Assembly (NCBI RefSeq): GCF_901538355.1
Contig: NZ_LR593887.1
Coordinates: 1,464,920-1,528,919, forward strand
Source of the DNA: Tuwongella immobilis
GTDB lineage: Bacteria > Planctomycetota > Planctomycetia > Gemmatales > Gemmataceae
DNA: 64,000 nt
Direction of reading: 5' to 3'
Shown piece by piece: positions 47,445 to 62,724 of the stretch. Both the position numbers and the translations under genes were made by a program. The notes under the pieces were generated by a model. It did no database searches. It saw only the letters and a list, made by a program, of their open reading frames with translations, and was not told where the DNA came from. Position 1 is the first letter of the stretch; each line of letters begins with the position of its first letter.

Positions 47445-47462
47445 GGCGGAGGGCGCTCGCAG

Positions 47463-47907: not shown

Positions 47908-47923
47908 GGAGGAGGACGCACGG

Positions 47924-48394: not shown

Positions 48395-48402
48395 CAAGGC
48401 AG

Positions 48403-48726: not shown

Positions 48727-48737
48727 GGAGGAGTGTA

Positions 48738-49187: not shown

Positions 49188-49203
49188 CCGCGGCGCAAGG
49201 CAC

Positions 49204-49293
49204 GCCGAACCAAGCGACAGCTGACGCCGCCATGTGGTTCGGATGGCATCGCTCCCTGGGAGGGGGCGGTGCAGGTGAGCTATGTCGTTCGGC
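49204..49293 (+). repeat. attC site 6
   Basis: 90 bp. R'' GCCGAAC (49204-49210), R' GTTCGGC (49287-49293). The inner arms belong to a second sub-type with CACCGCTCCCTGGGAGGGGGCGGTG-like apex sequence, also seen in sites 12 and 18. Confidence 0.85.
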
Positions 49294-49315
49294 ATAAGGA
49301 AGTGGAGGGGGCGCG

Positions 49316-49591
49316 ATGGCGAAGAAGTCCCTGGTATGCGCGGCCGCACAAAGCGGGCTGCACGTCGCCGTCGAGAACGAGGACTGGGTTGGCGTCCGCG
49401 GCACGCCGGCGGAGCTTGAACAACTCGGCCGCTTGCTTATCGAGTTCGCCCGGTCGGTAGGGCCGGACTACGCCAACCTGGACGCGCCGGGGCCGCTGTT
49501 CCGAGACGGCAGCCTGGGCATCACGCTTTACCGCGTTGGCCTCGCCGCAGACGCCGAACCAGGCGCTGCACCGGACCCGGCGGCAGGATAG
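49316..49591 (+). CDS. Cassette gene 5: small hypothetical protein
   Basis: 91 residues from ATG 49316, behind GTGGAGG. Short alpha/beta protein (KSLVCAAAQSGLHVAVE, ELEQLGRLLIEFARSVG, GSLGITLYRVGLA), with the last ten residues (AEPGAAPDPAAG) encoded by attC 7. No family recognised; size and composition would suit an immunity or antitoxin protein but nothing proves it. Confidence 0.65.
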   Translation: MAKKSLVCAAAQSGLHVAVENEDWVGVRGTPAELEQLGRLLIEFARSVGPDYANLDAPGPLFRDGSLGITLYRVGLAADAEPGAAPDPAAG

Positions 49592-49649
49592 GTTTCTGGG
49601 AGTTCATGGCTCTCCTGTGCCGCCGGGCAGATGAGCTGGGTCGTTCGGC
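49553..49649 (+). repeat. attC site 7
   Basis: 97 bp. R'' GCCGAAC (49553-49559), R' GTTCGGC (49643-49649). The previous gene ends inside it. Confidence 0.88.
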
Positions 49650-49666
49650 GGTGGAGGGCTTCGGGG

Positions 49667-50173
49667 GTGGACAATCTCGGCACGTTGTCGTTCCCCGATC
49701 ACCGGATGGCGGTTCATACCGCCCGGATGTACCCGGTCACCACGGATGACGAGCCGCCGCGGGCCGGGTGGTACTTCTTCATCGCCGCCAGCGAGCCGTT
49801 CGAGGAGCCGCCGGTCGCGGAGGGGGATTGCAGCGACTTCCCGAACGGGGCGGCTCTGTACGCCGAGTTCGAGCCGGTGCCGCTGCCGGCGGTGGACGAC
49901 TTCACCGGGCTGGACTTCGCCCTCAAGGAGCCGTACCACCCGGAGCACGGCGAGGTGTACTTCACGTTCGACGCCTGGGAGGCGCGGGACGTGAGCGATG
50001 TCCGCATCCAGTTCCTGGAGCGGGACGGGTCGCGGTATCGGGTCGAGTTGTCAGCGCTCGTGCATCAGGTGTTCCAGCAGCCCACAGCGTTGCGGTACTC
50101 CGGGTGGGTCGCGGTCACTGCGAGCGGCAGCCCAGACGCCGAACCATCGGCTGCAGCCGACGGCGGGGCATGA
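49667..50173 (+). CDS. Cassette gene 6: hypothetical acidic protein
   Basis: 168 residues from GTG 49667, 18 bp after R'. Rich in Pro, Glu, Asp and aromatic residues (RAGWYFFIAASEPFEEPPV, VDDFTGLDFALKEPYHPEHGEVYFTFD), mostly beta-strand in appearance, with the attC-encoded tail AEPSAAADGGA. No signal peptide or metal motif. The many acidic residues resemble proteins that block basic toxins, but this is speculation. No family recognised. Confidence 0.68.
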   Translation: MDNLGTLSFPDHRMAVHTARMYPVTTDDEPPRAGWYFFIAASEPFEEPPVAEGDCSDFPNGAALYAEFEPVPLPAVDDFTGLDFALKEPYHPEHGEVYFTFDAWEARDVSDVRIQFLERDGSRYRVELSALVHQVFQQPTALRYSGWVAVTASGSPDAEPSAAADGGA

Positions 50174-50232
50174 TTGGTTTGTGGGAGTTCATGGCTCAGT
50201 GGCCCCGCCGCTGCTGAGCTTGGTCGTTCGGC
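50138..50232 (+). repeat. attC site 8
   Basis: 95 bp. R'' GCCGAAC (50138-50144), R' GTTCGGC (50226-50232). Differs from attC 9 by a single base. Confidence 0.9.
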
Positions 50233-50248
50233 GGCGGAGGGCTTCCGG

Positions 50249-50782
50249 ATGGATGCGGTCGAGCGGTTCGCGGCGGAAGCCGTCGCCTACCGCGAGTGGG
50301 CGGCCCGCGGCACTGACACCGGCGAGTACGCATCCCGTACCGCGTTGCTCCGCATCACCCGGTTGTACCTCGCCGCTCTGGAACTGCCGCCCGCATGGTC
50401 CGAGGAACTGGCAGACCAACCCGACGCCCAGCGGGTCGGAAACGAGGAGTGGCGGGCCGTGTTCGCGGCGGCCGGGCGGTTGCCCCTGGACTCCTACGGA
50501 GCGGTGTTCGATCCGTCGGTCGTGCCGCTTGAGGAGCCGGTTGTCGGCAGCTTGTCCGACGACATCGCGGACATCTACCGAGACGTCGTGAGCGGGCTGT
50601 GGGCGTTCGAGGCTGGGCGGCAGGCGGCCGCTGTTTGGGCGTGGGGGTTCGGGTTCCGGCATCACTGGGGTGAACACGCCACGGGTGCCATCCGAGCGTT
50701 GCACTCGTGGCTTGCGGCCAACGCCTTCGACCGGCTCGCGTCAGACGCCGAACCATCGGCTGCAGCCGACGGCGGTGCATGA
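50249..50782 (+). CDS. Cassette gene 7: DUF5063 family protein
   Basis: 177 residues from ATG 50249. Helical protein with DAVERFAAEAVAYREWAA at the start and LLRITRLYLAALELP at 40-54, the pattern of DUF5063 proteins (small helical bundle, function unknown). A tryptophan-rich C-terminal half follows (AAAVWAWGFGFRHHWGEHATGAIRALHSWLA), again typical. The last residues (AEPSAAADGGA) come from attC 9. Family members occur in accessory and immunity-type loci by my recollection; treat that as background. Complete length for the family. Confidence 0.75.
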   Translation: MDAVERFAAEAVAYREWAARGTDTGEYASRTALLRITRLYLAALELPPAWSEELADQPDAQRVGNEEWRAVFAAAGRLPLDSYGAVFDPSVVPLEEPVVGSLSDDIADIYRDVVSGLWAFEAGRQAAAVWAWGFGFRHHWGEHATGAIRALHSWLAANAFDRLASDAEPSAAADGGA

Positions 50783-50841
50783 TTGGTTTGTGGGAGTTCA
50801 TGGCTCAGTGGCCCCGCCGCTGCTGAGCTTGGTCGTTCGGC
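50747..50841 (+). repeat. attC site 9
   Basis: 95 bp. R'' GCCGAAC (50747-50753), R' GTTCGGC (50835-50841). One base different from attC 8, indicating recent common origin. Confidence 0.9.
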
Positions 50842-50859
50842 GGCGGAGGGCTTCGGGGC

Positions 50860-51375
50860 ATGCAGTCGTTGATTGAGGAACTCGACCGCCACGTCGCAGC
50901 TGAGCGCCCGGGGCTGTACGCCACCCTCCGGCCCGGTGCGGACGCGGCGGGGTTCGACGCGCTCCAAGCTTTGTTGCCCGCCCCAGTGCCGCCCTTGTTC
51001 CAGGCGTTGTATGGGTGGCGAGACGGCCAGATCGAGGAAACCCGCGAGCGGTTCTGGGACGTGTGGTTCCTCCTGCCACTGGAGGAGGTCCGCAACTGCA
51101 AGGACATGCTCGACGGGATGATCGGCCACGACTTCGATCGGCCGGATTGGTGGTGCCGCGGGTGGGTGCCGTTCCTGGGCAACCGGAACGGGGACCATGT
51201 GTGCTTGGACTTGACCGCCGAGACGGGCGGCGAGCCGGGCCAGCTCCTGACATTTTGGCACGACTGGGAGGACCGGTCGATGACCAGCTTCGATCTGGAG
51301 TGGTGGGTGCATAGCCTCATCCGCCCGCACGACATTCTGGCCTCCCTGCGGCGAGCCAGCAAGCGGCCGGGGTAG
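50860..51375 (+). CDS. Cassette gene 8: SMI1/KNR4 (SUKH) family protein
   Basis: 171 residues from ATG 50860. SUKH-domain proteins are the commonest immunity proteins of bacterial polymorphic toxin systems and bind their toxin directly. Seen: LPAPVPPLFQALYGWRDGQ near 40-60 (the LP..L..ly..hNG block), WFLLPLEEVRN, then WVPFLGNRNGDHVCLDLT and GEPGQLLTFWHDWE, the hallmark GG.gd.ic.Dl block followed by a w..dw segment. No toxin gene is adjacent, so it would be an orphan immunity gene. Full length. Confidence 0.82.
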   Translation: MQSLIEELDRHVAAERPGLYATLRPGADAAGFDALQALLPAPVPPLFQALYGWRDGQIEETRERFWDVWFLLPLEEVRNCKDMLDGMIGHDFDRPDWWCRGWVPFLGNRNGDHVCLDLTAETGGEPGQLLTFWHDWEDRSMTSFDLEWWVHSLIRPHDILASLRRASKRPG

Positions 51376-51384
51376 CACAGGCAC

Positions 51385-51476
51385 GCCGAACTATCGGCTG
51401 CAGCAGACCCCCACCTCATCGGTTGTTTCCAGCGTTCAGCTCCCCGAGGCGGGGCTGCTGAGCTTAGTCGATCGGC
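51385..51476 (+). repeat. attC site 10
   Basis: 92 bp. R'' GCCGAAC (51385-51391), R' GATCGGC (51470-51476), a variant at the second base. Inner arms GGCTGCAGCAG and GGGCTGCTGAGC. Confidence 0.85.
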
Positions 51477-51492
51477 AGCGGAGGGCGCGGCG

Positions 51493-51906
51493 GTGGATGA
51501 CGTGGTCGAGTATCGCGATGACCGCGACTTGCCACCCGGCGAGGTCGTCGCCTTGTATCGTGCGAACGGCTGGTCGGCCGCGGACAAGCCGGCCGAACTA
51601 CTGGCCGCTCTCACCGGCTCGCACTCGCTCGTCACGGCGTGGTCGGGCGGCCGGCTGGTCGGGCTGGGCAACGCCATCTCGGACGGGCATCTGGTGGTGT
51701 ACTACCCGCACCTGCTGGTGCTCCCGGAGTGGCAGGGGCGTGGGGTTGGCGGGCAGCTGATGCGGCGGCTCATGGCCCGGTACGCCGGGTTCCACATGCA
51801 GATGCTCACCGCCGACGGGCGGGCGGTCGAGTTCTACCGCCGCCTCGGGTTCGCCCGGGCCGGGCAGACCGAGCCGATGTGGGTGTACGCCGGCACCGAC
51901 CACTGA
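51493..51906 (+). CDS. Cassette gene 9: GNAT family N-acetyltransferase
   Basis: 137 residues from GTG 51493. GNAT enzymes transfer acetyl from acetyl-CoA to amines. The CoA-binding motif A is HLLVLPEWQGRGVGGQLM (Q81-G-R-G-V-G86) and motif B is FYRRLGFARAG (114-124). The beta-alpha order and length match small stand-alone GNATs; these include antibiotic-modifying enzymes, but the substrate cannot be predicted. The tail ends before the attC, so no site-encoded residues are added. Confidence 0.94.
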   Translation: MDDVVEYRDDRDLPPGEVVALYRANGWSAADKPAELLAALTGSHSLVTAWSGGRLVGLGNAISDGHLVVYYPHLLVLPEWQGRGVGGQLMRRLMARYAGFHMQMLTADGRAVEFYRRLGFARAGQTEPMWVYAGTDH

Positions 51907-51915
51907 CCGAAGCAC

Positions 51916-52006
51916 GCCGAACTCGGCGCTGCACCGGACCGCTGTCAAGTGCGACGCATGGCGACCGTCTCGCGACGTTCGCGGCAGGTGAGCTTCATCG
52001 TTTTGC
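51916..52006 (+). repeat. attC site 11
   Basis: 91 bp. R'' GCCGAAC (51916-51922), R' GTTTTGC (52000-52006), degenerate. Inner arms GGCGCTGCACC and GGCAGGTGAGC. Confidence 0.78.
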
Positions 52007-52023
52007 ACCAGAGGGCACTGCGC

Positions 52024-52305
52024 GTGGAACTGAACGATTACTCGGCCCGGTTCCTGGCGGTCCTGCTGGGAGCGTTCCCGGAGTTCGGTGAGCGGGTTGT
52101 CGCCGGACCCGAGGCGGGTTGCTTCACGGCCGAGTGCGTGGCCCCGTCCGGTTCGACCATCTGGGTCACCACGGAGGAGTTCGGCCGGGTCACCGTCGGG
52201 TGCGGTGCCGGCCACGCCCATTTCGGCGGGTGGGCCGAGTCGGTGGACGCTGACGACTTCGAGGCCGCCGTCGCCCAGGTGCGCCGCTTGCTGGGAAGGG
52301 CGTAG
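52024..52305 (+). CDS. Cassette gene 10: small hypothetical protein
   Basis: 93 residues from GTG 52024. Alpha/beta protein: helical start (DYSARFLAVLLGAFPEFGER), then strands (STIWVTTEEFGRVTVGCG, HAHFGGWAE), then an acidic C-terminal helix (DADDFEAAVAQVRRLL). The final helix pattern is frequent among small immunity-like proteins, but no family is recognised. Stop is followed by 150 bp without a gene before attC 12. Confidence 0.62.
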   Translation: MELNDYSARFLAVLLGAFPEFGERVVAGPEAGCFTAECVAPSGSTIWVTTEEFGRVTVGCGAGHAHFGGWAESVDADDFEAAVAQVRRLLGRA

Positions 52306-52455
52306 GCAGCCAGGCGCGCTGGCGACGGACTTCGCGCGGCGCGTGCGCGAGTTGGTGCGGTTCAGCGGTCGGCGGCAGGGTGTCGCAATGCCGACGGGGA
52401 CGCGTGTCGCCGCTCCGCCGGCGCGTGGCGGCGTCCGTGGTCCCGGCGCAAGGCA
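52306..52455 (+). other. Decayed attC and gene-less segment
   Basis: 150 bp without a gene. 52306-52377 resembles a damaged attC: CAGCCAGGCGCGCTGGCGACGG at one end and GGTCGGCGGCAGGG (a GTTCGGCGGCGGAGGG-like cassette head) at the other. The remaining 78 bp may be the remnant of a gene-less cassette. Confidence 0.45.
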
Positions 52456-52547
52456 GCCGAACCCGGCGCTGCACCGGACACCGCCATCTGGTCTGGGATG
52501 CACCGCTCCCTGGGAGGGGGCGGTGCAGGCGAGTTTCATCGATCGGC
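52456..52547 (+). repeat. attC site 12
   Basis: 92 bp. R'' GCCGAAC (52456-52462), R' GATCGGC (52541-52547). Same apex sub-type as sites 6 and 18. Confidence 0.85.
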
Positions 52548-52566
52548 TACCGGAGGTTTCCGCAGC

Positions 52567-53055
52567 GTGGAGCACTTCCGCTACGAGTTGCACACCGGCA
52601 GCGAGGCCGAGGTCATCGACCTGTGGCTCAACGGCCTGCGCGGCCGAATCGAGGTCGCGTACGTCGCGATGGGCACTACAGAACGGGGCTACCGGCTCGC
52701 CTGTGCCCACCAGCCGCTCTCACCCGCGTTCGGTATCTTGGAGGTCGAGCAGGCGGAGACCCGGACTGCCGATGGCGAGTTCGTCGCTGTGGAACTGGAC
52801 GAGGAGCAGGTGCCTCTCCCGCTAGTCGTCGAGTACCTCCGCGTGCCGCTGAGCCCGGTATTCGTCCACGGGGGCAGCTCTCTCGCGTTCGCCGGGACGG
52901 TCACCCCCGAGTTCACGCTCATGCTCGCGGTGTACGACACCGACGGCCGCCCCGAGCGTGGCGTGCTGCGGGAGATCTACGACCATCTGGACAAGCGAAA
53001 GCTGGCAGCGCAAGAGGCCGAACCCGGCGCTGCAACAGACGGCGGGAGTGTGTAA
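52567..53055 (+). CDS. Cassette gene 11: hypothetical protein
   Basis: 162 residues from GTG 52567, 20 bp after R'. Beta-rich with acidic patches (FRYELHTGSEAEVIDLWLNGL, VEVEQAE-type strands, PEFTLMLAVYDTDGRPERGV) and a C-terminal helix (REIYDHLDKRKLAAQ), ending with the attC-encoded AEPGAATDGGSV. No signal peptide, no known motif and no close relative elsewhere in the array. The full-length frame and correct cassette placement support it as a real gene. Confidence 0.66.
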   Translation: MEHFRYELHTGSEAEVIDLWLNGLRGRIEVAYVAMGTTERGYRLACAHQPLSPAFGILEVEQAETRTADGEFVAVELDEEQVPLPLVVEYLRVPLSPVFVHGGSSLAFAGTVTPEFTLMLAVYDTDGRPERGVLREIYDHLDKRKLAAQEAEPGAATDGGSV

Positions 53056-53113
53056 GCTTTCTGCGACGAGTCGGTCAGCGCGCCACCGCCGCTGCTGAGT
53101 TTGGTCGTTCGGC
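53017..53113 (+). repeat. attC site 13
   Basis: 97 bp. R'' GCCGAAC (53017-53023), R' GTTCGGC (53107-53113); inner arms GGCGCTGCAACAGACGGCGG and CCGCCGCTGCTGAG. Confidence 0.88.
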
Positions 53114-53129
53114 GACGGAGGCGCATGGA

Positions 53130-53507
53130 ATGGCGAAGGTCGTGTCTATCACTGCTGCACTGATCATCGCTGCGGTCGCTGGAACTGCCCTGACCGTCGG
53201 CGTGTACTCGGCGTACTGGGGGCCGCTGGAGTACGCGCTGGGGGCGTGGGCGCTGGCAGCAGCAGCGCACCTGGTATGGTGCGGGGTGTACCTGCTGCTG
53301 GACGAGTCGGTGTACGAGGACGCGGTCGAGTCGGGCTTCCTCGCGGTCAGCGGGTCCGTGGGCCTGTACGTCTTCCGGTTCTTCGGCCTACTGGCGATCT
53401 CGGTAGCGGTGTCAGCGTTGGTGGTCCATCTGGTGGTGCGGTGGGTTTCACCCGCCAAGCAGAAGCCCGCCGAACCAGGCGCTGCACCTGACCGGTGGGG
53501 CATGTAG
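53130..53507 (+). CDS. Cassette gene 12: small multi-pass membrane protein
   Basis: 125 residues from ATG 53130 (ATG 53125 is out of frame). Three to four hydrophobic helices: about 5-27 (VSITAALIIAAVAGTALTVG), 37-58 (GAWALAAAAHLVWCGVYLLL), 70-85 and 90-110 (FFGLLAISVAVSALVVHLVV). The attC-encoded tail AEPGAAPDRWGM would face the cytoplasm. No family recognised. Membrane proteins are common in cassette arrays; the role is unknown. Confidence 0.7.
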   Translation: MAKVVSITAALIIAAVAGTALTVGVYSAYWGPLEYALGAWALAAAAHLVWCGVYLLLDESVYEDAVESGFLAVSGSVGLYVFRFFGLLAISVAVSALVVHLVVRWVSPAKQKPAEPGAAPDRWGM

Positions 53508-53565
53508 ACGTTCCCAGTGTTCAAACTCCCCACGCCCCGCCGGCAGGTGAGCTTAGTCGTTCGGC
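53469..53565 (+). repeat. attC site 14
   Basis: 97 bp. R'' GCCGAAC (53469-53475), R' GTTCGGC (53559-53565). Confidence 0.87.
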
Positions 53566-53592
53566 GGCAGAGGGCCCGAGGCACGGAGGCGC

Positions 53593-53961
53593 ATGAGTCG
53601 GGACATCCACATCGGCTACCGGTTCACGGACGACGGCCCTGAGACGGCCATCGAGGTCCGTGCCCCCTACTTCCTGTTCGGCACGCCGGCTACCAGCAAG
53701 CAGTTCTGGAGCCTGCCGCGACTGCGTGAGGTTGGCATCACGCAGCTCACCGAACTCGGCGTGGCGGACCCGGTGTACTTCGTCGGCTGGGACATGATGG
53801 CCGAACTCCGCCGGGAGATCGGCCTGCTGCAAGAGCACCTTCCGGGGATCGACTTCGACCTGGACTGCAAGGCGTGGTTTCTGGCGCACTTGGTTTACTG
53901 CTACTCCCTGCTGGTGTTCACCGCGCCGCCGGACTCCACGCCGGTGCTCACCATCGGGTAG
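53593..53961 (+). CDS. Cassette gene 13: hypothetical protein
   Basis: 122 residues from ATG 53593. Begins with beta strands (DIHIGYRFTDDG, AIEVRAPYFLFG), contains a helical middle (DMMAELRREIGLLQEHLPG) and a C-terminal helix with several aromatics (KAWFLAHLVYCYSLLVF). No signal peptide or catalytic motif. The fold could be small alpha/beta; no family recognised. The stop is 8 bp before attC 15. Confidence 0.67.
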   Translation: MSRDIHIGYRFTDDGPETAIEVRAPYFLFGTPATSKQFWSLPRLREVGITQLTELGVADPVYFVGWDMMAELRREIGLLQEHLPGIDFDLDCKAWFLAHLVYCYSLLVFTAPPDSTPVLTIG

Positions 53962-53968
53962 CGCAGAC

Positions 53969-54060
53969 GCCGAACCAGCCGCTGCAGCAGACCGCGGCCA
54001 CATCGATTGTTTCCAGGGGGCAGCTCGCTGGGTCGCAGCTGCTGAGCTTGATCGTTCGGC
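53969..54060 (+). repeat. attC site 15
   Basis: 92 bp. R'' GCCGAAC (53969-53975), R' GTTCGGC (54054-54060); inner arms GCTGCAGCAG and CAGCTGCTGAGC. Confidence 0.87.
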
Positions 54061-54075
54061 GGAGGGTTTCAGACG

Positions 54076-54363
54076 GTGGCAGCACTGACCTACGAGCACG
54101 CTCTGGCCGCGGCCCACCAGCACCTGTGGTCCTGTCGTCCGCCGCCCGAGTGGGTGTGGCGGCTGCCGGTCGGTGAGCGGGTGGCCGGTGGCTGGTACTT
54201 CGCTTGCACGCTGGAACCGCTGCGTCTGATCGACGACGGGCTGGGGACGCGGTTCGGCGGGCAATCGGGGTTCGTGGTGCTAGACACCGGTGGCATCCGT
54301 CCGGCATACCGGGTCCAAGTCGCAGACGCCGAGCCAGGCGCTGCAGCAGACGGCGAGGCATAA
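54076..54363 (+). CDS. Cassette gene 14: small protein, possibly YrhB/Imm35-like
   Basis: 95 residues from GTG 54076. The order is an N-terminal helix (TYEHALAAAHQHLW), a strand with GGWYFACTLEPLRLIDDG, then FGGQSGFVVLDTGGIRPAY. This resembles the YrhB/Imm35 plan: helix, then a gWvf.y.s..yl segment, then a GN.P.lVd...G segment. Those proteins include immunity proteins of toxin systems. The resemblance is by eye and weak. The last residues (AEPGAAADGEA) come from attC 16. Confidence 0.6.
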   Translation: MAALTYEHALAAAHQHLWSCRPPPEWVWRLPVGERVAGGWYFACTLEPLRLIDDGLGTRFGGQSGFVVLDTGGIRPAYRVQVADAEPGAAADGEA

Positions 54364-54423
54364 TTAGTTTTTGGGACTTCAAGCTCGATGGTGCCCCGCC
54401 GCTGGTGAGCGGGGTCGTTCGGC
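54328..54423 (+). repeat. attC site 16
   Basis: 96 bp. R'' GCCGAGC (54328-54334), R' GTTCGGC (54417-54423); inner arms GGCGCTGCAGCAGACGGCG and CGCCGCTGGTGAGC. Confidence 0.86.
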
Positions 54424-54442
54424 GGCGTCGGAGAAGACACCG

Positions 54443-54703
54443 ATGGCGGACCTCGCGGGCCGGATCAAGGCGTTCCTCAATCGGCAGCCGCCGGCCGAGG
54501 TGAACTACGTGCCGGGGTCGCTGGTCGAGGGGCTGATGGCCACCTACGCCATCGCGGGCCGGCTGGACGCCGAAGGCAGGCTGCTCCTGGGCATCTGCGA
54601 GGCCGAGTTGGCGAAGTTGGTGGCGAGCAAGACCGGGCCGGCGGCCGACTACTTCGGGGAGTGCCTGGCCATCGTCAAGGCTATCCAAGAGGAGTCGCGG
54701 TAG
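54443..54703 (+). CDS. Cassette gene 15: small helical hypothetical protein
   Basis: 86 residues from ATG 54443. Predicted all-helical (ADLAGRIKAFLNRQ, GSLVEGLMATYAIAGRLD, ICEAELAKLVASK, YFGECLAIVKAIQEESR). No signal, membrane segment or known motif. The stop is immediately before R'' of attC 17. The size is that of many antitoxin or immunity proteins, but this is only a size argument. Confidence 0.65.
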   Translation: MADLAGRIKAFLNRQPPAEVNYVPGSLVEGLMATYAIAGRLDAEGRLLLGICEAELAKLVASKTGPAADYFGECLAIVKAIQEESR

Positions 54704-54704
54704 C

Positions 54705-54802
54705 GCCGAACCATGCGCTGCACCTGACCTGGCGGTACGACGCGTTTCTGGGAGTTTGAATGCACCTGATGCGGCTGGGCAGGTGAGCTGAGTTCGTTCG
54801 GC
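54705..54802 (+). repeat. attC site 17
   Basis: 98 bp. R'' GCCGAAC (54705-54711), R' GTTCGGC (54796-54802); inner arms GCGCTGCACCTG and GGCAGGTGAGC. Confidence 0.87.
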
Positions 54803-54819
54803 GGCGGAGGGCTTTGTCA

Positions 54820-55188
54820 GTGCGAGTCATCCTGCGGAATCCGCATGCCGATGACGGTCGGGACTTCCAATACTCGCTGACGGTAGGGCGCGAGTACGAG
54901 GTGCTGGGACTGTGCATCGATAGCTTTCGGCTCCTAAACGACAAGGACGAGCCGATCCTATATGACACCTGTTGCTTCGAGGTGTCGGACGCGGCTGAGC
55001 CCGAGTTCTGGGTATCACACGACAGCGAGGAGGGCGAGCGGTACGCCCACCCGGCGGAGTGGAGCCGTCCGGGCTACTTCGAGGACTGGCACGACGGCGT
55101 GCCGGCGGTCGTCGCGTGCTTCTGGCGGGACTTGGAGCGGCTTTACCCATGGACAGCCGCAGAACGCCGAACCAGGCGCTGCACCTGA
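54820..55188 (+). CDS. Cassette gene 16: hypothetical protein
   Basis: 122 residues from GTG 54820 (TTG 54814 also possible). The first half has the look of a small beta barrel: VRVILRNPHADDG, SLTVGREYEVLGLCI, FRLLNDKDEPILYDTCCFEV. Then come acidic and aromatic segments (PEFWVSHDSEEGERYAHPAEW) and a helix (VVACFWRDLERLY). Similar small proteins occur in polymorphic-toxin loci by my recollection; unproven. The end reads into attC 18 in another frame, giving the tail RRTRRCT. Confidence 0.68.
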   Translation: MRVILRNPHADDGRDFQYSLTVGREYEVLGLCIDSFRLLNDKDEPILYDTCCFEVSDAAEPEFWVSHDSEEGERYAHPAEWSRPGYFEDWHDGVPAVVACFWRDLERLYPWTAAERRTRRCT

Positions 55189-56380: not shown

Positions 56381-56402
56381 CGTCGCACCTCCGCCGCCGA
56401 AA

Positions 56403-56630
56403 GAATCCATTCAAGTCGTCGGTGCATTTTCCGAGAGATTCACCCCTTCAGAATGCCTACGACGTCTCCCGATTGGATTATTGGCATCGACTTCGGCCAT
56501 TACAAGAGCGTCGCCTGGATTTACCACCGGCTGTCTCGCGAATCCCCCACCGGACATCGCGTGCGGACGATTCCCGGAACAATCCGCTCGGAAAGCCAAC
56601 TCGCTTTGATTTGAGCAACCAGCGGCTTTA
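56403..56630. repeat. B repeat, copy 1 (IS110-like transposase fragment)
   Basis: 228 bp lying exactly between the R' ends of two cassette boundaries. On the plus strand a 53-codon frame (56453-56614) reads DWIIGIDFGHYKSVAWIYH, like the DEDD N-terminus of IS110-family transposases, then stops. Also at 58180-58320 (deleted) and 59183-59410. IS110/IS1111 elements are known to target attC sites, but this fragment lacks the rest of the element. Confidence 0.6.
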
Positions 56631-56727
56631 TCGTCGTCACCGCTCATCCACTGCGACATGCGGAAGTGAGCGATGAACTTCCAGAAATGGATCATGCTTC
56701 GCCGTTTGCTGCAGCGATTGGTTCCGT
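56631..56727 (-). repeat. attC site 19 (minus strand)
   Basis: 97 bp. L'' GCTGCAGC and the conserved apex (GCATGATCCATTTCTGGAAG on the minus strand) are intact. R'' is GTTCCGT read on plus, and R' (TCGTCGT region) is decayed. Confidence 0.72.
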
Positions 56728-56736
56728 CCGGCCTTC

Positions 56737-57459
56737 TCACCACGATACCTGGCCTTGGCCGTCGCAAGTGGCACAATCCTCCCTGAAAGTGAGTACGTCT
56801 TCGACACCACTCCCGCCGCAATCGGGGCACGCGAACAACTCTCCCGCGAATGCGGCCAGATGTGGGTCGTATCGCCCCCTATTTTCATCCCACTCCTGCA
56901 AGTCGCAGATGCAGAGCAAATCCCGGCCGCAGTACACCTTCTGCAATCCAGACTCATCGTCGTATACCCACTCCTCGAACGGAGCAATGTCCTCAGGAGA
57001 CTCCAGCAACACGCCCCAGAACGCCGCCGCAACTCGCTGCTTGGCCGAGGTGTCGAACCCAGTCTTGGGGAAGATCAACCCTGGGCCGCGATACCCATCT
57101 GCGCAGATAAACGGGAGCGCGGTCAAGGTGGCTGTCGACCTCGAGTGTACGACAGCCAGGAAGGGGAACTCCAACAGGTCATGACGGCCTTGATTCCCAC
57201 CGGTCGCCGGACGGAGATGGAATGCAGATGGGATTCGTGCTCGGAGCCAATAATGCAGGACGGTCTCGTCGTGCAAGTCATAGCAGTTGAAGAGGCTTCG
57301 CAACCGAGGCAAGTCCGGCCCGAACGACCCCGCGCAGTATTCCGTTGTTCCCTCAACATCGGCACAGAAGTCAAACCGGGCCGGAACTAGCAAAACGTCC
57401 CCGATCCCGATTGGTAGCCCGACGATGTCATTCAGGATGATCCCTGGAACGATAGACAC
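56737..57459 (-). CDS. Cassette gene 19: zinc-finger hypothetical protein
   Basis: 240 residues from GTG 57459; TTG 57465 in the same frame adds two residues. The C-terminal 30 residues hold two CxxC pairs in CPDCGGSGVEDVL and CATCDGQGQ, like the DnaJ-type zinc centre or a rubredoxin-like knuckle. The rest is alpha/beta (IVPGIILNDIVGLPIGIGDVLLV, CYDLHDETVLHYWLRA, VVHSRSTATLTALPFIC). No signal peptide, no family recognised. The cassette head (TTCGGCCCTTTTCG) lacks the usual GGCGGAGG. Confidence 0.65.
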   Translation of the reverse strand: MSIVPGIILNDIVGLPIGIGDVLLVPARFDFCADVEGTTEYCAGSFGPDLPRLRSLFNCYDLHDETVLHYWLRARIPSAFHLRPATGGNQGRHDLLEFPFLAVVHSRSTATLTALPFICADGYRGPGLIFPKTGFDTSAKQRVAAAFWGVLLESPEDIAPFEEWVYDDESGLQKVYCGRDLLCICDLQEWDENRGRYDPHLAAFAGELFACPDCGGSGVEDVLTFREDCATCDGQGQVSW

Positions 57460-57485
57460 ATTCAAGGTCTCGAAAAGGGCCGAAG

Positions 57486-57641
57486 TCTTGATTCAATCGC
57501 GTCGTAAGGAAACGCTCCTTGTGCCCCGCGATCAGTCACGGTCATGTTGTCATTTTTGCTTCCTGCGTCACTTCAATCCCAATCGGTCGTACCAATTTAT
57601 TTCTTGGAATTTGTCGCCAGCGAACGATTGTGCCCGGGGCA
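57486..57641 (-). repeat. E1 repeat, copy 2
   Basis: 156 bp, inverted relative to copy 1, bounded by the crossover of cassette 19 on one side and R' GTTCGAT of attC 20 on the other. No gene. Confidence 0.78.
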
Positions 57642-57734
57642 ATCGAACGTGGGAAGTGACGCTTGCTCCCAAAGAGTTTCCCCGAGGTCAAGCGGGTTCA
57701 CGCTCAGCTGGACTGCTGCAGCGCCGGGGTCGGC
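57642..57734 (-). repeat. attC site 20 (minus strand)
   Basis: 93 bp on the minus strand: R'' GCCGACC, L'' GGCGCTGCAGCAG, R' GTTCGAT (57642-57648 on plus as ATCGAAC). The L' arm is lost, so it probably no longer folds. Confidence 0.68.
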
Positions 57735-57739
57735 GTGCA

Positions 57740-58156
57740 TTATTCGCCGCCGGTCGCAGCCACCAATGCCTCGACGTCTGCGGCGGGCAGTTGTCGGACC
57801 AGCTGTTGTGGGTGTGCGGACAGGTCATCGTTGAGCACACACAGACCATTTGGGAGAAGGTTGAGGCTGAACCCGTCCCCGCGGACCATCCGCCCCGGAA
57901 CGTAGGTGACGAGCGATCGCTGCCACCCGTCCGGATGGGCCGCCAGCCAATCGGCGATGGCCCGTTCCTCGGCAGACCCCGGCGCGAATGTGGACTCCCG
58001 CACTGGATGCCCGTCTTGATAGACCTGGACGCGGTACGGCCCCCGAAGTTGCGCGATCTCGACGGCACGCGAAGCCGTGGCGAGACAACCGATGCCCAGA
58101 CCCGCCGCGATCAGCAGGGCAGTCAGAATTCCCACGATGTACCACCGTCGCCGCAT
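57740..58156 (-). CDS. Cassette gene 20: small membrane-anchored protein
   Basis: 138 residues from ATG 58156. An N-terminal helix (RRWYIVGILTALLIAAGLGIGCL) looks like a signal anchor; the Cys after it is not in a lipobox context. The remaining 110 residues form a soluble domain outside the cytoplasm (GPYRVQVYQDGHPVRESTF, ERAIADWLAAHPDGWQ, FSLNLLPNGLCVLND) that ends with an acidic helix. No family recognised. The stop is 5 bp before attC 20. Confidence 0.68.
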   Translation of the reverse strand: MRRRWYIVGILTALLIAAGLGIGCLATASRAVEIAQLRGPYRVQVYQDGHPVRESTFAPGSAEERAIADWLAAHPDGWQRSLVTYVPGRMVRGDGFSLNLLPNGLCVLNDDLSAHPQQLVRQLPAADVEALVAATGGE

Positions 58157-58179
58157 CGCAAAGCCCTCCAGAGCCGAAA

Positions 58180-58320
58180 GAATCCATTTAAGTCGTCGGT
58201 ACATCTTCCGAGAGATTCACCCCTTCAGAATGCCTGCACCGGACATCGCGTGCGGACGATTCCCGGAACAATCTGCTCGGAAAGCCAGCTCGCTTTGATT
58301 TGTGCAATTGACGGCTCCAC
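58180..58320. repeat. B repeat, copy 2 (internal deletion)
   Basis: 141 bp matching the ends of copy 1. The middle, including the putative transposase start, is missing, joining TTCAGAATGCC directly to TGCACCGGACATCGCG. Confidence 0.72.
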
Positions 58321-58416
58321 CGTCGTCACCGCTCATCCACTGCGACATGCGGAAGTGAGCGATGAACTTTCAGAAATGGATCATGCTCCGCTGTCTGATG
58401 CAGTGCCGGGTTCGGC
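58321..58416 (-). repeat. attC site 21 (minus strand)
   Basis: 96 bp. R'' intact (GTTCGGC on plus, 58410-58416), L'' GGCACTGCATCAGACAGCGG on minus, R' decayed (CGTCGTC region). The preceding minus-strand gene ends inside it. Confidence 0.74.
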
Positions 58417-58671
58417 ATGCCTTGGCTTAGCCGCGCAGGTCGGACAGAGCACAAGCCATTTCGTCGAATCGTTCGGGACGGATACTGTCTCGGCGTGCCA
58501 CCCGGCCCGCCGGGCGAACTCCCCGAACCGGTGGTACCAGTCGTCGCCCGGGCCGTAGGACTCGCCAGATTGAGCGTCTCCGAGCAGGTATTCCCTGCAC
58601 CGGTCGCACATGAACAGGGTGAACACGAGGGCGACGCAGTAGTAAGGATCGTCAAGGTGCGGACTTGCCAT
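58381..58671 (-). CDS. Cassette gene 21: small zinc-ribbon-like protein
   Basis: 96 residues from ATG 58671. Two CxxC pairs, MCDRCREYLLGD (about 19-30) and LCPTCAAKP (about 78-86), would suit a zinc ribbon. Between them lies a helical segment (DWYHRFGEFARRAGWHAETV). The tail AEPGTASDSGA is encoded by attC 21. Of the long frame upstream only this part has protein character; the rest is the previous attC and cassette read in a wrong frame. Confidence 0.66.
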   Translation of the reverse strand: MASPHLDDPYYCVALVFTLFMCDRCREYLLGDAQSGESYGPGDDWYHRFGEFARRAGWHAETVSVPNDSTKWLVLCPTCAAKPRHAEPGTASDSGA

Positions 58672-58685
58672 CCGAGCCCCTTTCC

Positions 58686-58784
58686 TGCAAAGGACCACGC
58701 CCAAATGCCCGGCGGGGCACCAATGAGCTTTGAACTCCGAGAAACGAATCATGCTCCGCTGTCTGCTGCAGCACCGGGATCGGT
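58686..58784 (-). repeat. attC site 22 (minus strand)
   Basis: About 99 bp on minus: R'' ACCGATC, L'' GGTGCTGCAGCAGACAGCGG, apex as in other sites, R' degenerate (CTTTGCA). The preceding gene ends inside it. Confidence 0.7.
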
Positions 58785-59165
58785 ATCTGGTGCGACTCCG
58801 CCGGCGGCTACCTGCTCTGGCTGCCGGCGCGGACGGAGCATCGCAACGACCAGTGAGCATGCAACGCCGGCACTCACTGCCACCCATACGAATCCGACAT
58901 TGCGAAACCCTGCAGCGGCTGAAACGACATCGGGATCGGTGGAGGCAGAATCGTCGAAGGGCTGGAAGCAAAGCCAAGGTTTCCAGAAGAGTGTCCCGCA
59001 TACCCATAACAATGCCGCTCCCTCGGCGATTGTTCTCGATCGGCACACCAAGGCGACGCCCGCGACGAAACCGACCACTGCGAAGGTCAGAAAGATTTGG
59101 ACCATCGCCATCGCCCAAGCGGCCTCGGCAAGCCCCGCCGCCGCGAATAGTCCCAGCATACTCAT
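58749..59165 (-). CDS. Cassette gene 22: four-helix membrane protein
   Basis: 138 residues from ATG 59165. Four hydrophobic helices: about 2-20 (LGLFAAAGLAEAAWAMAM), 24-42 (IFLTFAVVGFVAGVALV), 50-62 (AALLWVCGTLFW) and 92-110 (VGFVWVAVSAGVACSLVVAM). A short acidic loop (FDDSASTDPD) sits between the third and fourth. The tail (DTDPGAAADSGA) is attC-encoded. No family recognised. The upstream crossover R' reads GTTCGAC on the minus strand. Confidence 0.68.
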   Translation of the reverse strand: MSMLGLFAAAGLAEAAWAMAMVQIFLTFAVVGFVAGVALVCRSRTIAEGAALLWVCGTLFWKPWLCFQPFDDSASTDPDVVSAAAGFRNVGFVWVAVSAGVACSLVVAMLRPRRQPEQVAAGGVAPDTDPGAAADSGA

Positions 59166-59182
59166 CCCTCTGATGGTCGAAC

Positions 59183-59410
59183 GAATCCATTCAAGTCGTC
59201 GGTGCATCTTCCGAGAGCTTCACCCGTTCAGAAGGCCTGCGACGTCTCCCGATTGGATTATTGGCATGGATTTGCTACGGTTCAAGAGCGTTGTTTGTAT
59301 TTATCATCGTCGTACCCGTGAATCAATCACCGGACATCGGGTGCGGACGATTCCCGGAACAATCCGCTCGGAAAGCCAATGCGCTTTGATTTGAGCAATT
59401 GACGGCTCCA
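59183..59410. repeat. B repeat, copy 3
   Basis: 228 bp, same length and boundaries as copy 1, but the ATG of the IS110-like frame is changed (AGG) and the frame reads DWIIGMDLLRFKSVVCIYH, so it is a decayed fragment. Confidence 0.72.
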
Positions 59411-59506
59411 TCGACGAAGAAGCTCACCTCCAGCGAGTTGCGGAAGTGAGCGATGAACTTCCAGAAATGGATCATGCTTCGCCATTTGCTGCAGCGATTG
59501 GTTGGC
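59411..59506 (-). repeat. attC site 23 (minus strand)
   Basis: 96 bp. R'' GCCAACC on minus, L'' GCTGCAGCAAATGGCG, apex conserved, L' CGCTGGAGGTGAGC, R' degenerate (GTCGATG). Confidence 0.72.
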
Positions 59507-59515
59507 GTGACTTGG

Positions 59516-59881
59516 TTACCAGAACTGCCACCATGGGTGCGGCGGGCGGACCAATTCGTCGAGTGCCGCCCCGAGTGACGAGACGAGTACGACGGCCTGG
59601 GACACCCGCCCCCGCATCCGCTGCCACGGTCTCACGAACCACTTACCGCCTATCTCCCACACATATGCGGCCAACTCGCCGCGGCGGAACCGGTAGATCG
59701 GGTGCGGGCCTGGCAACTCGCGGGCCGCATGGTCGTCCTCGAATAGCCCGTTGCCGATCCGCTCGAACCAGCTGCGGGCCGGGTGGTCGTCGTGGACAGA
59801 CAGAGCTTGCATCATGCCCCGCCACGGTTGCGGCAACTGGTCGATGGTCAGGAACGGCCCCCGGTCTTCGCTGTCCGACAC
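59516..59881 (-). CDS. Cassette gene 23: hypothetical protein
   Basis: 121 residues from GTG 59881, 17 bp after R' and behind GGCGGCGGGAGG. Helical start (FLTIDQLPQPWRGMMQAL), acidic centre (GLFEDDHAARELP), strands (IYRFRRGELAAYVWEIGGKWFVRPW), a helix (SQAVVLVSSLGAALDEL) and an aromatic C-terminus (HPWWQFW). Two tryptophan-rich patches suggest protein or sugar binding. No family recognised. Confidence 0.66.
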   Translation of the reverse strand: MSDSEDRGPFLTIDQLPQPWRGMMQALSVHDDHPARSWFERIGNGLFEDDHAARELPGPHPIYRFRRGELAAYVWEIGGKWFVRPWQRMRGRVSQAVVLVSSLGAALDELVRPPHPWWQFW

Positions 59882-59897
59882 CGCAAGCCCTCCCGCC

Positions 59898-59988
59898 GCC
59901 GATTGACTCCGCTCACCTGTCGGTAGGTGCGGGGAGCGATGAACTCCAGAAACTAAATCACGACCTGCCGTCGGCTGCAGTGTCGGGG
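59898..59988 (-). repeat. attC site 24 (minus strand)
   Basis: 91 bp. R' AATCGGC (59898-59904 on plus as GCCGATT), L' GACAGGTGAGC, L'' ACTGCAGCCGACGGCAGG, R'' CCCCGAC, all on minus; both core boxes are diverged. Confidence 0.7.
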
Positions 59989-60000
59989 GCGGGGGATTGC

Positions 60001-60486
60001 CTACACCAACCGCAACATCTGCAACTCACCGGACGCCAAATCCAATACCGCAACCGTGAACGCGTCGGCCCGGTGCAACGCCCCAGGGTTGATCCGCCGC
60101 ACTCCGCCGACAATCGCGTCATTGGGGATGTGCGAGTGACCGGAGAGCAGGATTTCCGGTTGATCGGCCAGCACCCGCCGGACGTCGGTGGTGATGTGCC
60201 CATGGGCCACCCCCACACGTCGGCCGCTGACCTCGATGACTCCACCCCAGCCCAAGCACACCGGCCCGAACTCGATGGCCGCCCGCTGCAAGGCTGGCAC
60301 CATGTCCGAGTCGTGGTTGCCGAGCGCGAACCACGCCGGGAGTACGGCTAGCGCCTCAACGATGGGCGGGCTGGCGAGGTCGCCGCAGTGGATCAGTGCC
60401 TCGGCTCCGGCGTCACGCAGCATCTGTACTGCCTGCTGCGTGCGTGCCAACTCATCATGCGTGTCGGATAGAATGCCAAGACGCAT
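60001..60486 (-). CDS. Cassette gene 24: YfcE/MJ0936-type metallophosphodiesterase
   Basis: 161 residues from ATG 60486. Calcineurin-like phosphoesterase with every metal motif: SDTHD (Asp 8, His 10), GDLA (Asp 36), GNHD (57-59), HGH (95-97) and GHSH (117-119). The family uses two metal ions to hydrolyse phosphodiesters; bacterial YfcE-type proteins accept simple diesters or cyclic nucleotides, and relatives occur in phage-defence systems. The length is normal and the gene looks functional. GGAGGGGCC precedes the start. Confidence 0.95.
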   Translation of the reverse strand: MRLGILSDTHDELARTQQAVQMLRDAGAEALIHCGDLASPPIVEALAVLPAWFALGNHDSDMVPALQRAAIEFGPVCLGWGGVIEVSGRRVGVAHGHITTDVRRVLADQPEILLSGHSHIPNDAIVGGVRRINPGALHRADAFTVAVLDLASGELQMLRLV

Positions 60487-60509
60487 GGCCCCTCCGATTG
60501 CCTTCGCAG

Positions 60510-60604
60510 GCCGAACTGCTCAGCTTCGCAGCGGCGGTGGCGGAGTGAGTGATGCATTCGCTGAAACCAGTCCGTCCCCGCCGTCTAATGCAGCCAGGTT
60601 CGGC
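60510..60604 (-). repeat. attC site 25 (minus strand)
   Basis: 95 bp with intact core boxes: GCCGAAC (60510-60516) and GTTCGGC (60598-60604). On minus the arms are GGCTGCATTAGACGGCGG and CCGCCGCTGCGAAGCTGAGC. Confidence 0.86.
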
Positions 60605-60610
60605 GTGCCA

Positions 60611-61069
60611 TCACTCGGGGACCGCGACTGGCCTGACCAACCGCACCGCCTCATCGCCGGGGAACACTCGCGTTCCGTCGGTATACGGCCCCATGAGCCG
60701 CGTGCCGCACGTGCTGGCAAGATACCACCGCCCGCCGATGCATGCCAGCGACCAGTATGGGTCGTTTGGGTCTCGCTCGCCTGCGAACGGGTAGGTGCCG
60801 CACAGTGCATCGGCTCCGAACCGCTCCCACAGGCGGACCGCGACGCGGAGGTCGGGGTACGGCCCCAGACCGCACTCTTCGCGGCACACCAGCACGCTCA
60901 GGACGCGGGGCCACGCTGGGTCGTGGGTATCGCCGACCAGCGCCCACAACGCCCCCGGCTCGTCGATCAGGTCGGCGATGTCCCACCGCACATCCACCCG
61001 CAGACTGGGCGGGATCAGGTCGGCCAGGGCAGCGGCGAGGTCGTCCGGGGCGAGTGGCTTGGACAACAT
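60611..61069 (-). CDS. Cassette gene 25: hypothetical protein
   Basis: 152 residues from ATG 61069 (TTG 61090 in frame is an alternative nearer to R'). Helical start (KPLAPDDLAAALADLIPPSLR), DVRWDIADLIDEPG, strands RVLSVLVCREECGL, a helix (DLRVAVRLWERFGADALC), then a C-terminal block of strands (WSLACIGGRWYLASTCGTRLMGPYTDG). The overall pattern looks like an alpha/beta immunity-type protein, but no family is recognised. Confidence 0.66.
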   Translation of the reverse strand: MLSKPLAPDDLAAALADLIPPSLRVDVRWDIADLIDEPGALWALVGDTHDPAWPRVLSVLVCREECGLGPYPDLRVAVRLWERFGADALCGTYPFAGERDPNDPYWSLACIGGRWYLASTCGTRLMGPYTDGTRVFPGDEAVRLVRPVAVPE

Positions 61070-61106
61070 GATGTCGAACGACGTTGACAACCCGAAATCC
61101 TCCGCC

Positions 61107-61210
61107 GCCGAGCGCCTTCGCTCACCTGTCGGTGGTGACCGGGTGAGCGAGTTCCGGACTTCCAGAAACCGCATTATGCTCCGCCATCTGCTGCAGCGAT
61201 TGGTGCCGGC
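61107..61210 (-). repeat. attC site 26 (minus strand)
   Basis: 104 bp. R' GCTCGGC, L' GACAGGTGAGC, L'' GCTGCAGCAGATGGCGG, R'' GCCGGCA, all on minus. Confidence 0.78.
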
Positions 61211-61220
61211 ATCTTCGACC

Positions 61221-61703
61221 TCACGGTATGAGGAATTTCTTGGCCATCTCACTGGCTACGTCTACTAGGATGTCCCGAATGGCTTGGGCTGTGAACTTGC
61301 CGATCGGCTCCAACAAACGAGTAATCCGCAGCGAGGCGACCTGTGCCTGAGGAGTGTCCTTGGCGATCTGCTCCACGCTCTCCTTGAACTCTCGACGGGC
61401 CTCTTGGTCTTGCGTCTCCTCGATGAACAGGTCGATGGCCGCTTGCTGTTTTCGTTCCGTCCAGGGGAATGGTGATCCACAACTTAAGCAGAACCCCGGT
61501 GGGTCATAGTTGTGGCCAAGCATCACACCCGGTACATGGTAATACCCGCGAATACGAGCATCGCACTTGGGACAGCTGGTGATGGTGGCTTCGCCGCATT
61601 TGTCGCAGAACGGTTTGCGGTGCTGTGGGCAGGTTTCGGCCATCGACGAAGCAACGTGCCCATTAGGGCAGACCTGAGCTACGTCATAGTAGCTGTTTCT
61701 CAT
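61221..61703 (-). CDS. Cassette gene 26: DUF2321 zinc-ribbon protein
   Basis: 160 residues from ATG 61703. Matches the DUF2321 family by its block order: YYDVAQVCPNGHVASS, then HRKPFCDKCGEATITSCPKC, IRGYYHVPGV, and FCLSCGSPFPWTERK. The first seventy-five residues hold at least four metal-type CxxC/CxxxH groups, so two or more zinc ions are likely. The remainder is helical. Function of the family is unknown. SD-like GGAGGTGG lies just upstream. The stop is 10 bp before attC 26. Confidence 0.86.
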   Translation of the reverse strand: MRNSYYDVAQVCPNGHVASSMAETCPQHRKPFCDKCGEATITSCPKCDARIRGYYHVPGVMLGHNYDPPGFCLSCGSPFPWTERKQQAAIDLFIEETQDQEARREFKESVEQIAKDTPQAQVASLRITRLLEPIGKFTAQAIRDILVDVASEMAKKFLIP

Positions 61704-61726
61704 CAATCCACCTCCGCTCGCTGAAT

Positions 61727-61882
61727 TCTTGATTCAATCTCGTCGCAAGGAAACGCTCCTTGCTCACCGCGATCGATCACAGTCTCATCGTTGTTTTTGC
61801 TTTCTGCGTCACTTCAATCCCAATCGGTCGCACCGGTCAATTTCTCGGAATTTGTCGGCAGCGAACGATTGTCCCCAGGGCA
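61727..61882 (-). repeat. E1 repeat, copy 3
   Basis: 156 bp, same orientation as copy 2, between the crossover of cassette 26 (degenerate ATTCAGC) and R' GTTCGAT of attC 27. Confidence 0.78.
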
Positions 61883-61974
61883 ATCGAACGCGGGAAGTGA
61901 CGCTTGCGATCCGAGCATTTCGCCGAGGTCAAGCGGGTTCACGCTCCGCCGTCTGCGGCAGCGTCGGGTTCGGT
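61883..61974 (-). repeat. attC site 27 (minus strand)
   Basis: 92 bp. R'' ACCGAAC, L'' GACGCTGCCGCAGACGGCGG, R' GTTCGAT (61883-61889 on plus as ATCGAAC); L' arm lost, as in site 20. Confidence 0.72.
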
Positions 61975-61977
61975 GTG

Positions 61978-62724
61978 TTACAACCCCACGAGTTGGAGCC
62001 ATCGGGCCTCCAGCAACTCGGCGTATTCCAAAGACTCCAGTCCGTAGGGGTTGAGTGAGTATCCCTCGTTGACCTCGACTAGCACCGTGCGGCCGTCGGT
62101 CAGGACGCCGAAGTCGATCCCGTACCCGGCCGGAGCCGCCCGGCCAAGGGTCGCCACTGCCTCGCGGACCACGTTGGCGTCGGGGTAGCGGAACACATCC
62201 CCCTGGTAGCGGGACAACTCGAGGATCTGCCCGTGCCGAACGAAACACCGCCACTCGGACACGAACGTGACGTACTCCGACACGAGCACCTCATGACCGT
62301 CTGGCAGCGACGATGCCTCTGCGATGTCGGCCGCATCGTAAACGGCGAGTGACGGCGCGCCCTTGTTGCGTCGGAGCGACTTGACCCAGAGTGGCTCGGG
62401 TGGCCCCGTCCGCCCGTATTGGTGGCGCAGTTCGCCCCATGTCGAGGTCCACACCCGGCGACCGCGGTACTTGGTCAGCGCCGTCGGCAAGTTGTCGGCT
62501 GGTGGCACCGAAACCCCGAGTGCGGCGAGCGCTGCCTCCACAACGGGCACACCGCCAGCCACCAGCGTGTCGCGGGCAAGTGGTACAGTCCGTTGCTCGA
62601 TCTGGGCCGGCTCGAACAGCTCGCAGCGGATGCCCCGCTTGCGGAACCCATCCCAGGCCCGATAGAACGGGTCAGCCGCGGGCATGCCGCGCTCGGCCTG
62701 GATGTACGCCAGCTTCAACTTCAT
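61978..62724 (-). CDS. Cassette gene 27: ATP-grasp domain protein
   Basis: 248 residues from ATG 62724 behind GGCGGAGG. Looks like a short ATP-grasp enzyme: after an alpha/beta N-terminal part (KLAYIQAERGMPAAD), the segment PLWVKSLRRNKGAPSLAVYD holds a candidate ATP-binding lysine. VLVSEYVTFVSEWRCFV resembles the beta-strand that contacts the base, and GYGIDFGVLTDGRTVLVEVNEGYSLNPYG is the metal-binding end (D..v, E.N). ATP-grasp enzymes join carboxylates to amines or thiols. This is the first cassette of the right half. Confidence 0.78.
   Translation of the reverse strand: MKLKLAYIQAERGMPAADPFYRAWDGFRKRGIRCELFEPAQIEQRTVPLARDTLVAGGVPVVEAALAALGVSVPPADNLPTALTKYRGRRVWTSTWGELRHQYGRTGPPEPLWVKSLRRNKGAPSLAVYDAADIAEASSLPDGHEVLVSEYVTFVSEWRCFVRHGQILELSRYQGDVFRYPDANVVREAVATLGRAAPAGYGIDFGVLTDGRTVLVEVNEGYSLNPYGLESLEYAELLEARWLQLVGL

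Follow-up and report, generated by a model that had tools for sequence, protein, structure and literature searches.

Short repeats that split attC sites in Tuwongella immobilis as probable miniature derivatives of an IS110-family element

The window analyzed here, a 64,000-nt stretch of the 6.69-Mb genome of the planctomycete Tuwongella immobilis, holds two attC arrays of opposite cassette orientation (~46742-55166 on the + strand and 56727-62000 on the - strand) that meet near 55.7 kb. It also holds three copies of a short repeat, termed B, which explains the broken look of three attC sites in the window array. A repeat search of the whole genome recovered five copies of B, the two distant ones (L007 and L008) lying on the minus strand at 6169087-6169312 and 5825058-5825285; a second search with a different copy as query returned the same five and one 35-bp match (E 0.21) that we take to be chance. 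The initial annotation of this DNA had placed the window copies at 56403-56630, 58180-58320 and 59183-59410, and a comparison of flanks and ends moves these limits by a few bases only, to 56402-56634, 58179-58323 and 59182-59414. The four long copies measure 233-235 bp, need at most two gap positions when aligned and are 70-83% identical, as against 73-90% for pairs that include the deleted copy (132/146, 194/234 and 132/146 aligned identities among the window copies, 70-82% for the remaining seven pairs). Copy 2 is deleted, as had been claimed: a further internal deletion, seen as 88 gap positions in the alignment, has brought it down to 145 bp with both ends present. An Rfam scan of the window gave no match at gathering scores. 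The features at the three sites are as follows.

56402..56634, + strand: B copy 1, a probable 233-bp miniature, left to right end in the transposase sense
56453..56611, + strand: N-terminal IS110-family transposase fragment, a 53-codon open frame with TGA at 56612-56614
56611..56634, + strand: right-end tip of copy 1, with a -35-like TTGAGC
56396..56401, - strand: R' part on the gene side of copy 1 (GCCGAA on the + strand), its last base, C, at 56635
56635..56727, - strand: remainder of the attC split by copy 1 (spacer, L', apex, L'', R'')
58179..58323, + strand: B copy 2, 145 bp, internally deleted, both ends kept
58173..58178, - strand: R' part on the gene side of copy 2, its last base at 58324
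58324..58416, - strand: remainder of the attC split by copy 2
59182..59414, + strand: B copy 3, a probable 233-bp miniature, outermost left base C
59176..59181, - strand: R' part on the gene side of copy 3 (GTCGAA), its last base at 59415
59415..59506, - strand: remainder of the attC split by copy 3

The box names and consensus used here are those customary for attC sites. The left flank of all five copies ends in GCCGAA, GTCGAA or GCCCAA, and the right flank begins with C, followed by six bases and GCTCA; when the flanks are joined across B, a 7-bp R' box, a 6-nt spacer and the L' box are restored in five of five cases. Read on the cassette strand, the order is G, element, TTCGGC, which places the insertion at the integron crossover G|TTCGGC, and the proposal that B lies precisely between crossover points thus holds. 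The insertion parts the G from TTCGGC, so that the attC beside B is left without an intact R' on the attC side, a state read earlier as decay. B does affect the R' boxes described as damaged (sites 19, 21 and 23), and these are split rather than decayed or mutated, with their final C still on the attC side. As for the target, which had been left between the attC apex and R', it is R' at the crossover and not the apex. When the three joined attC sites were folded, z scores ranged from -0.3 to -3.1 on the two strands and the expected R/L pairs were not reproduced throughout; the folding is not used as evidence.

The + strand frame of B matches the N-terminus of IS110-family transposases from related genomes (best E 7.2e-5, 57% over residues 3-36, genome G109), and B is collinear with these relatives at the DNA level (80.6% over 67 bp; 41 bp at 83% in G022), which bears out the IS110-like start originally noticed. 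Pfam and NCBIfam searches with the 52-53-aa B fragments alone returned no families. The complete G109 transposase is recognized as an "IS110 family RNA-guided transposase" (NF033542, E 7.6e-77) and displays, above cut-off, both the DEDD domain (PF01548, 58.1 bits) and the C-terminal Transposase_20 domain (PF02371, 99 bits). Elements of 1323-1678 bp with the ends of B are present in the Gemmataceae genomes G109, G032, G022, G050, G052 and G031, where the transposase frame is stop-free (G109, G032, G031), broken (G022, G050) or matched piecewise (G052). The left ends of B and of the long elements are alike, reading (A/C)GAATCCAT(G/T)CAAG(C/T)C and abutting an identical GCCGAA; the right ends read ACGGCTTCATAGT in the long elements, after the transposase and a non-coding region, and ACGGCTTCATCGT or variants in B. 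By this alignment B appears to join the left end and some 53 codons of the transposase directly to the right-end tip, the catalytic remainder and the non-coding region being absent. The fusion point is identical in all four long copies and both ends are retained, such that B has the makings of a miniature inverted-repeat transposable element (MITE): internally deleted, with both ends kept and several copies sharing one deletion. The earlier view of B as the footprint of an insertion is corrected accordingly. Full-length IS110-family elements sharing its 5' end, and its right end as well, do exist in other Gemmataceae; in the T. immobilis genome itself PF01548 and PF02371 had no matches and a transposase search likewise found no parent.

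The longer relatives resemble the IS1111 group, for which the published account gives subterminal inverted repeats of ~11-13 bp and terminal extensions of 7 bp on the left and 3 bp on the right (PMC11187229). By reading, such repeats can be recognized in G109, where the truncated copy has AAGCCGTGTGC at its left end and the long copy, whose own left end has three extra bases, has GCACACGGCTT at its right end; those of G031 (AAGCCGCGGTG / GACCGCGGCTT) agree at 10 of 11 positions, as do those of the B copy L007. The IS1111 layout is also evident in the non-coding region of the G109 element, ~370 bp from stop to right end, which is absent from B. When right and left ends are joined head to tail, a -35/-10-like pair with 17-nt spacing appears in 16 of 17 elements including B, a count read from sequence with the best -35 taken among spacings 15-19 and without a chance control; in B copy 1 it is TTGAGC-N17-TAGAAT. 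The pair agrees with the element boundaries and is what might be expected of a circular intermediate; for ISEc11, the joined ends are reported to form a promoter in that intermediate.

Across the 95 Gemmataceae genomes searched, the left-end junction (at most two mismatches) was found in 30, including this one, and in 19 of 39 genera, with none in reversed-pattern controls; the 30 are an upper figure that includes chance matches (e.g., L094, L100, L124 and L126, without attC context). The transposase was found at E<=1e-40 in 12 of the 95. An exact 19-base left-end pattern, run against 84,980 species genomes, recovered 28 stretches, 18 of them with R'-like flanks in planctomycete records; the other ten, from Haloferula, Caballeronia (3), Thiomargarita, Flagellimonas, Acidobacteriota, Phycisphaeraceae, Arcicella and Motiliproteus, have no R'-like flanks and are taken as chance. 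Taken by itself, the right-end pattern has no diagnostic value (48 matches in the T. immobilis genome versus 2 in reversed controls). Seven further miniatures of 259-741 bp, with other deletions and the same insertion place, were recovered (L090, L102, L105, L107, L127, L132, L134). Among them, L105 shares 97.8% identity with a longer element of the same genome (L104) through its first 406 bp, beyond which it passes directly to the right-end tip, an architecture that is the same as that of B. A pair from G009 comprises L132, whose length of ~741 bp is approximate on account of a run of Ns inside, and the 259-bp L134, which keeps little beyond its ends; the right tip is CATCGT as in B. Genomes G119 and G033 contain multiple left ends of a related type (L115-L121; GAATCCATGCATGCCGG.. 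and variants), most of them alike for ~60-180 bp and different thereafter. Six left ends from G033 were looked at as a possible second miniature family, and most pairs are alike for ~60-140 bp and then diverge; L119 and L121 are alike over ~508 bp.

The preference for the crossover was counted in two sets of elements. The first comprises 19: the five T. immobilis copies, 12 others whose right end was judged real by its flank, chosen from 67 left-end rows in which some loci were counted twice, and two G031 elements found by transposase. Rows without a right-end match were left out, as were L076, L091, L096, L099, L114 and L128, which have no attC motif after the right-end-like string; of these, L091 is a genuine element whose end is broken. 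Joining the flanks gives R' within one mismatch in 18 of the 19 and a strict spacer plus L' on the right in 16, against ~0.9% and ~0.4%, respectively, at random positions. The flank-based choice favors this right-side count, and a fairer set is the one led by the transposase (16 rows, 15 loci), which was picked independently of the target. Here 12 of 13 recognizable right ends abut an L'-like attC motif, one of them imperfect, and of nine left ends seven lie exactly at GCCGAA| and two, both from G031, 4 nt further. This is the site- and orientation-specific insertion in attC that marks the IS1111-attC group. The outermost left base across the 19 is A (15), C (3) or G (1); where it is C, a GTTCG.. 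box can still be read on the gene side, as with the GTTCGAC of copy 3. Four homologues from outside the Gemmataceae (Acaryochloris and the planctomycetes G078, G336 and G406; L167-L170) have similar ends with no attC seen in their flanks.

In IS1111 elements the target is located by the transposase together with an RNA that derives from the non-coding region downstream (PMC11187229). The string GGCCGAACGAATGGGC, whose first ten bases equal the R' target of G109 across the insertion point, occurs in the non-coding region downstream of the transposase gene in six of nine Gemmataceae elements, and ATAGTCGA, equal to right end plus target, occurs in that region in all nine. A free guide search for the best match to each element's own target gave 9/10 in G109 and G031 (13 and 6 of 1000 shuffles as good) and 8/10 in G032. 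The four outside homologues match their own targets in part only, and for the most part not significantly: the block 1 match was equaled in 120 (Acaryochloris), 238 (G078), 214 (G336) and 1000 (G406) of 1000 shuffles, and the block 2 match reached 9/10 in G078 (9 of 1000 shuffles). The block 2 score of G031 arose elsewhere in the non-coding region. RNA guidance of the Gemmataceae elements is likely from what is known of the family, and the matches found here are suggestive of it; were the guide real, an RNA with GGCCGAACGA would be expected from the downstream non-coding region.

Taken together, we consider it very probable that B is a non-autonomous miniature derived from an IS110-family element with IS1111-like layout whose Gemmataceae lineage inserts into attC in a single orientation, at the R' crossover G|TTCGGC. 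The ancestor would have lost all of its transposase gene beyond about codon 53, and with it the downstream non-coding region, the source of the targeting RNA in such elements, while keeping both ends, from which the promoter-like junction would still form. The miniature would then have spread to three or more dissimilar attC contexts of this genome, the most likely agent being a full-length element, since lost, that acted in trans. Each insertion splits R', which destroys or displaces the crossover, and would tie the two flanking cassettes and B into one block. The ends, the insertion point, the shared deletion and the longer relatives at the same site elsewhere can be read directly in the sequences, in which no parent was found here; mobilization in trans, RNA guidance and loss of recombination are inferences.

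Several points weigh against this account. The left-flank test is biased, most left ends having been found by a pattern that contains CGAA; the two G031 elements are 4 nt off on the left; and the exception in the transposase-led set, from G115, has a broken right end and is not in attC. There is no clear R'' box for L007, L008 (the distant T. immobilis copies), L078 and L112, where the attC call is R' plus L' alone. The right flank of copy 1 matches those of copies 2 and 3 at 80 and 76 of 90 bases, so that with this shared attC sequence some of the three may be block duplications of attC plus B. No transposase that could drive movement in trans was found in this genome. G022 and G050 show a weak guide match (7/10). 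The terminal extensions are 11 and 6 bp against the published 7 and 3, and the parent is therefore filed only as IS110 family with IS1111-like layout; part of this offset could be boundary assignment, as the boundaries rest on flank comparison. Finally, the ratio of non-synonymous to synonymous change (dN/dS) between long B copies is 0.20-0.56, which is odd for a dead fragment.

This last point deserves consideration in its own right. The differences among the long copies concentrate at third codon positions (13, 15 and 28 variable columns by codon position; chi-square p 0.03, n=4 sequences), and neutral simulations reach the observed dN/dS in 0-0.25% of runs for five of six pairs and in 7.7% for the sixth, the pairs not being independent. 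The start codon of the relatives is ACG in copies 1 and 3, with an in-frame ATG upstream in copy 1, and the frame of L008 contains a stop. Two explanations offer themselves: selection on the fragment at some time after the deletion, or exchange of sequence between the copies and coding parents. It is conceivable, if rather improbable, that the 53-residue fragment was under protein-level selection after the deletion while the miniature spread, as a micro-protein from the N-terminus of an RNA-guided transposase, acting perhaps as a partner of the full enzyme or as its inhibitor. If true, this would be a selected micro-protein carried by a miniature parked at the integron crossover, with cassette order frozen.

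The same third-position bias, as if the copies had diverged inside a coding gene, would suit an origin of B as dead debris, with separate full-length insertions eroding at different attC sites and no movement of a miniature, the likeness of the copies then being due to recurring deletion ends or to duplication of array blocks. Several relatives have indeed eroded singly with differing deletions, and copies 1-3 have attC sequence in common on the right; a single fusion point in four long copies from three distant genome regions with unlike left flanks would, however, call for recurrent identical deletions, and we regard this origin as unlikely. Still less probable is that B has been domesticated by the host for a function at cassette junctions, such as a promoter or small protein: the dN/dS values, below neutral simulation in five of six pairs, would fit such a role, but the ACG starts of copies 1 and 3, the stop in L008, the mostly lost frame of copy 2 and the mere five copies speak against it. 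That the integron integrase moves B as a normal gene cassette or as a portion of a long attC site, as its cassette position between crossover points could suggest, is hardly credible and was rejected, since its attC-side end reads G|ACGATG or similar and not G|TT, no R''/L'' pair and hence no attC of its own was seen inside it by reading, identical ends bound IS110-family transposase elements elsewhere and the strongest match to an integron integrase in this genome is no more than a C-terminal fragment.

As a miniature of an IS110-family element, B has counterparts in known systems. The IS1111-attC group (ISKpn4, ISPst6, ISPa25, ISPa21; PMC11187229, PMC11616780, PMC11089894) shares with the Gemmataceae elements a non-coding region downstream of the transposase and guide-like target matches. 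The Gemmataceae transposase is far from its plasmid homologues, with all of the best 5000 records, foremost from Klebsiella and other enterobacteria, below 60% identity and the closest listed at 47% (Acaryochloris). The host here is a planctomycete, and the insertion of the Gemmataceae elements lies at the R' crossover. The parent type is an IS110-family element of IS1111-like layout and behaves like members of the IS1111-attC group. Class C-attC group II introns use an enzyme and a mechanism unrelated to those of IS110-type elements. Their likeness to B lies in being mobile elements that also target attC (PMC9229058). A mini-IS of ISEc11, with 50 bp of the left and 46 bp of the right end, is described as mobile in the laboratory when transposase and seekRNA are supplied externally (PMC11187229), which is the mechanism of an outside helper proposed for B; B differs from that construct in being natural, in the size of the parts retained (left ~50 bp plus 53 codons, right ~25-30 bp) and in having its helper gone. 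MITECca01, from an IS982 element, is a short derivative dependent on the parent transposase, such MITEs being typically <300 bp (PMC9769881). B is like these bacterial MITEs in being a short derivative of an insertion sequence and unlike them in its imperfect subterminal inverted repeats, the lack of a visible target duplication and its one kind of target. A literature search, with most subscription journals outside its coverage, found no paper on attC-targeting insertion sequences or miniatures in Gemmataceae.

For the array, the insertion point implies that attC sites beside B would be unable to recombine normally, leaving neighboring cassettes tied together, and a similar cassette-tying idea has been proposed for ISPa21 (PMC11616780). 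The best integron-integrase match of the genome (G000:C1:5816100-5816564; ~4101-4565 of L074) covers only model positions 160-314, in a 225-aa frame where it is preceded by other sequence, and further C-terminal pieces lie at 5361230 and 4842103. The integron may be without an intact integrase and, the best match being a C-terminal fragment, the loss of recombination at B sites may be moot here. A second repeat, 80-85% alike, is found in the window at 57479-57708, 61720-61949 and 46395-46565 and in L074 at 4565-4789 and 9518-9626, where it directly follows the integrase C-terminus, ends in ..AATCAAGAGTTCGGC and also stops at a TTCGGC-like box. Its appearance is that of an intI 3' end together with attI, dispersed over the arrays, from which it would seem that intI is oriented towards its cassettes and that several attI positions existed.

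What emerges is a planctomycete variant of the IS1111-attC behavior already known, with miniatures in addition. The targeting of attC by IS110-family elements extends past the resistance integrons for which we found it reported and takes place here at the integrase crossover itself. The relatives with similar ends and different targets constitute a natural retargeting series for an RNA-guided transposase. For the reading of integron arrays there is also a caution, in that a seemingly decayed R' may be a split R'.

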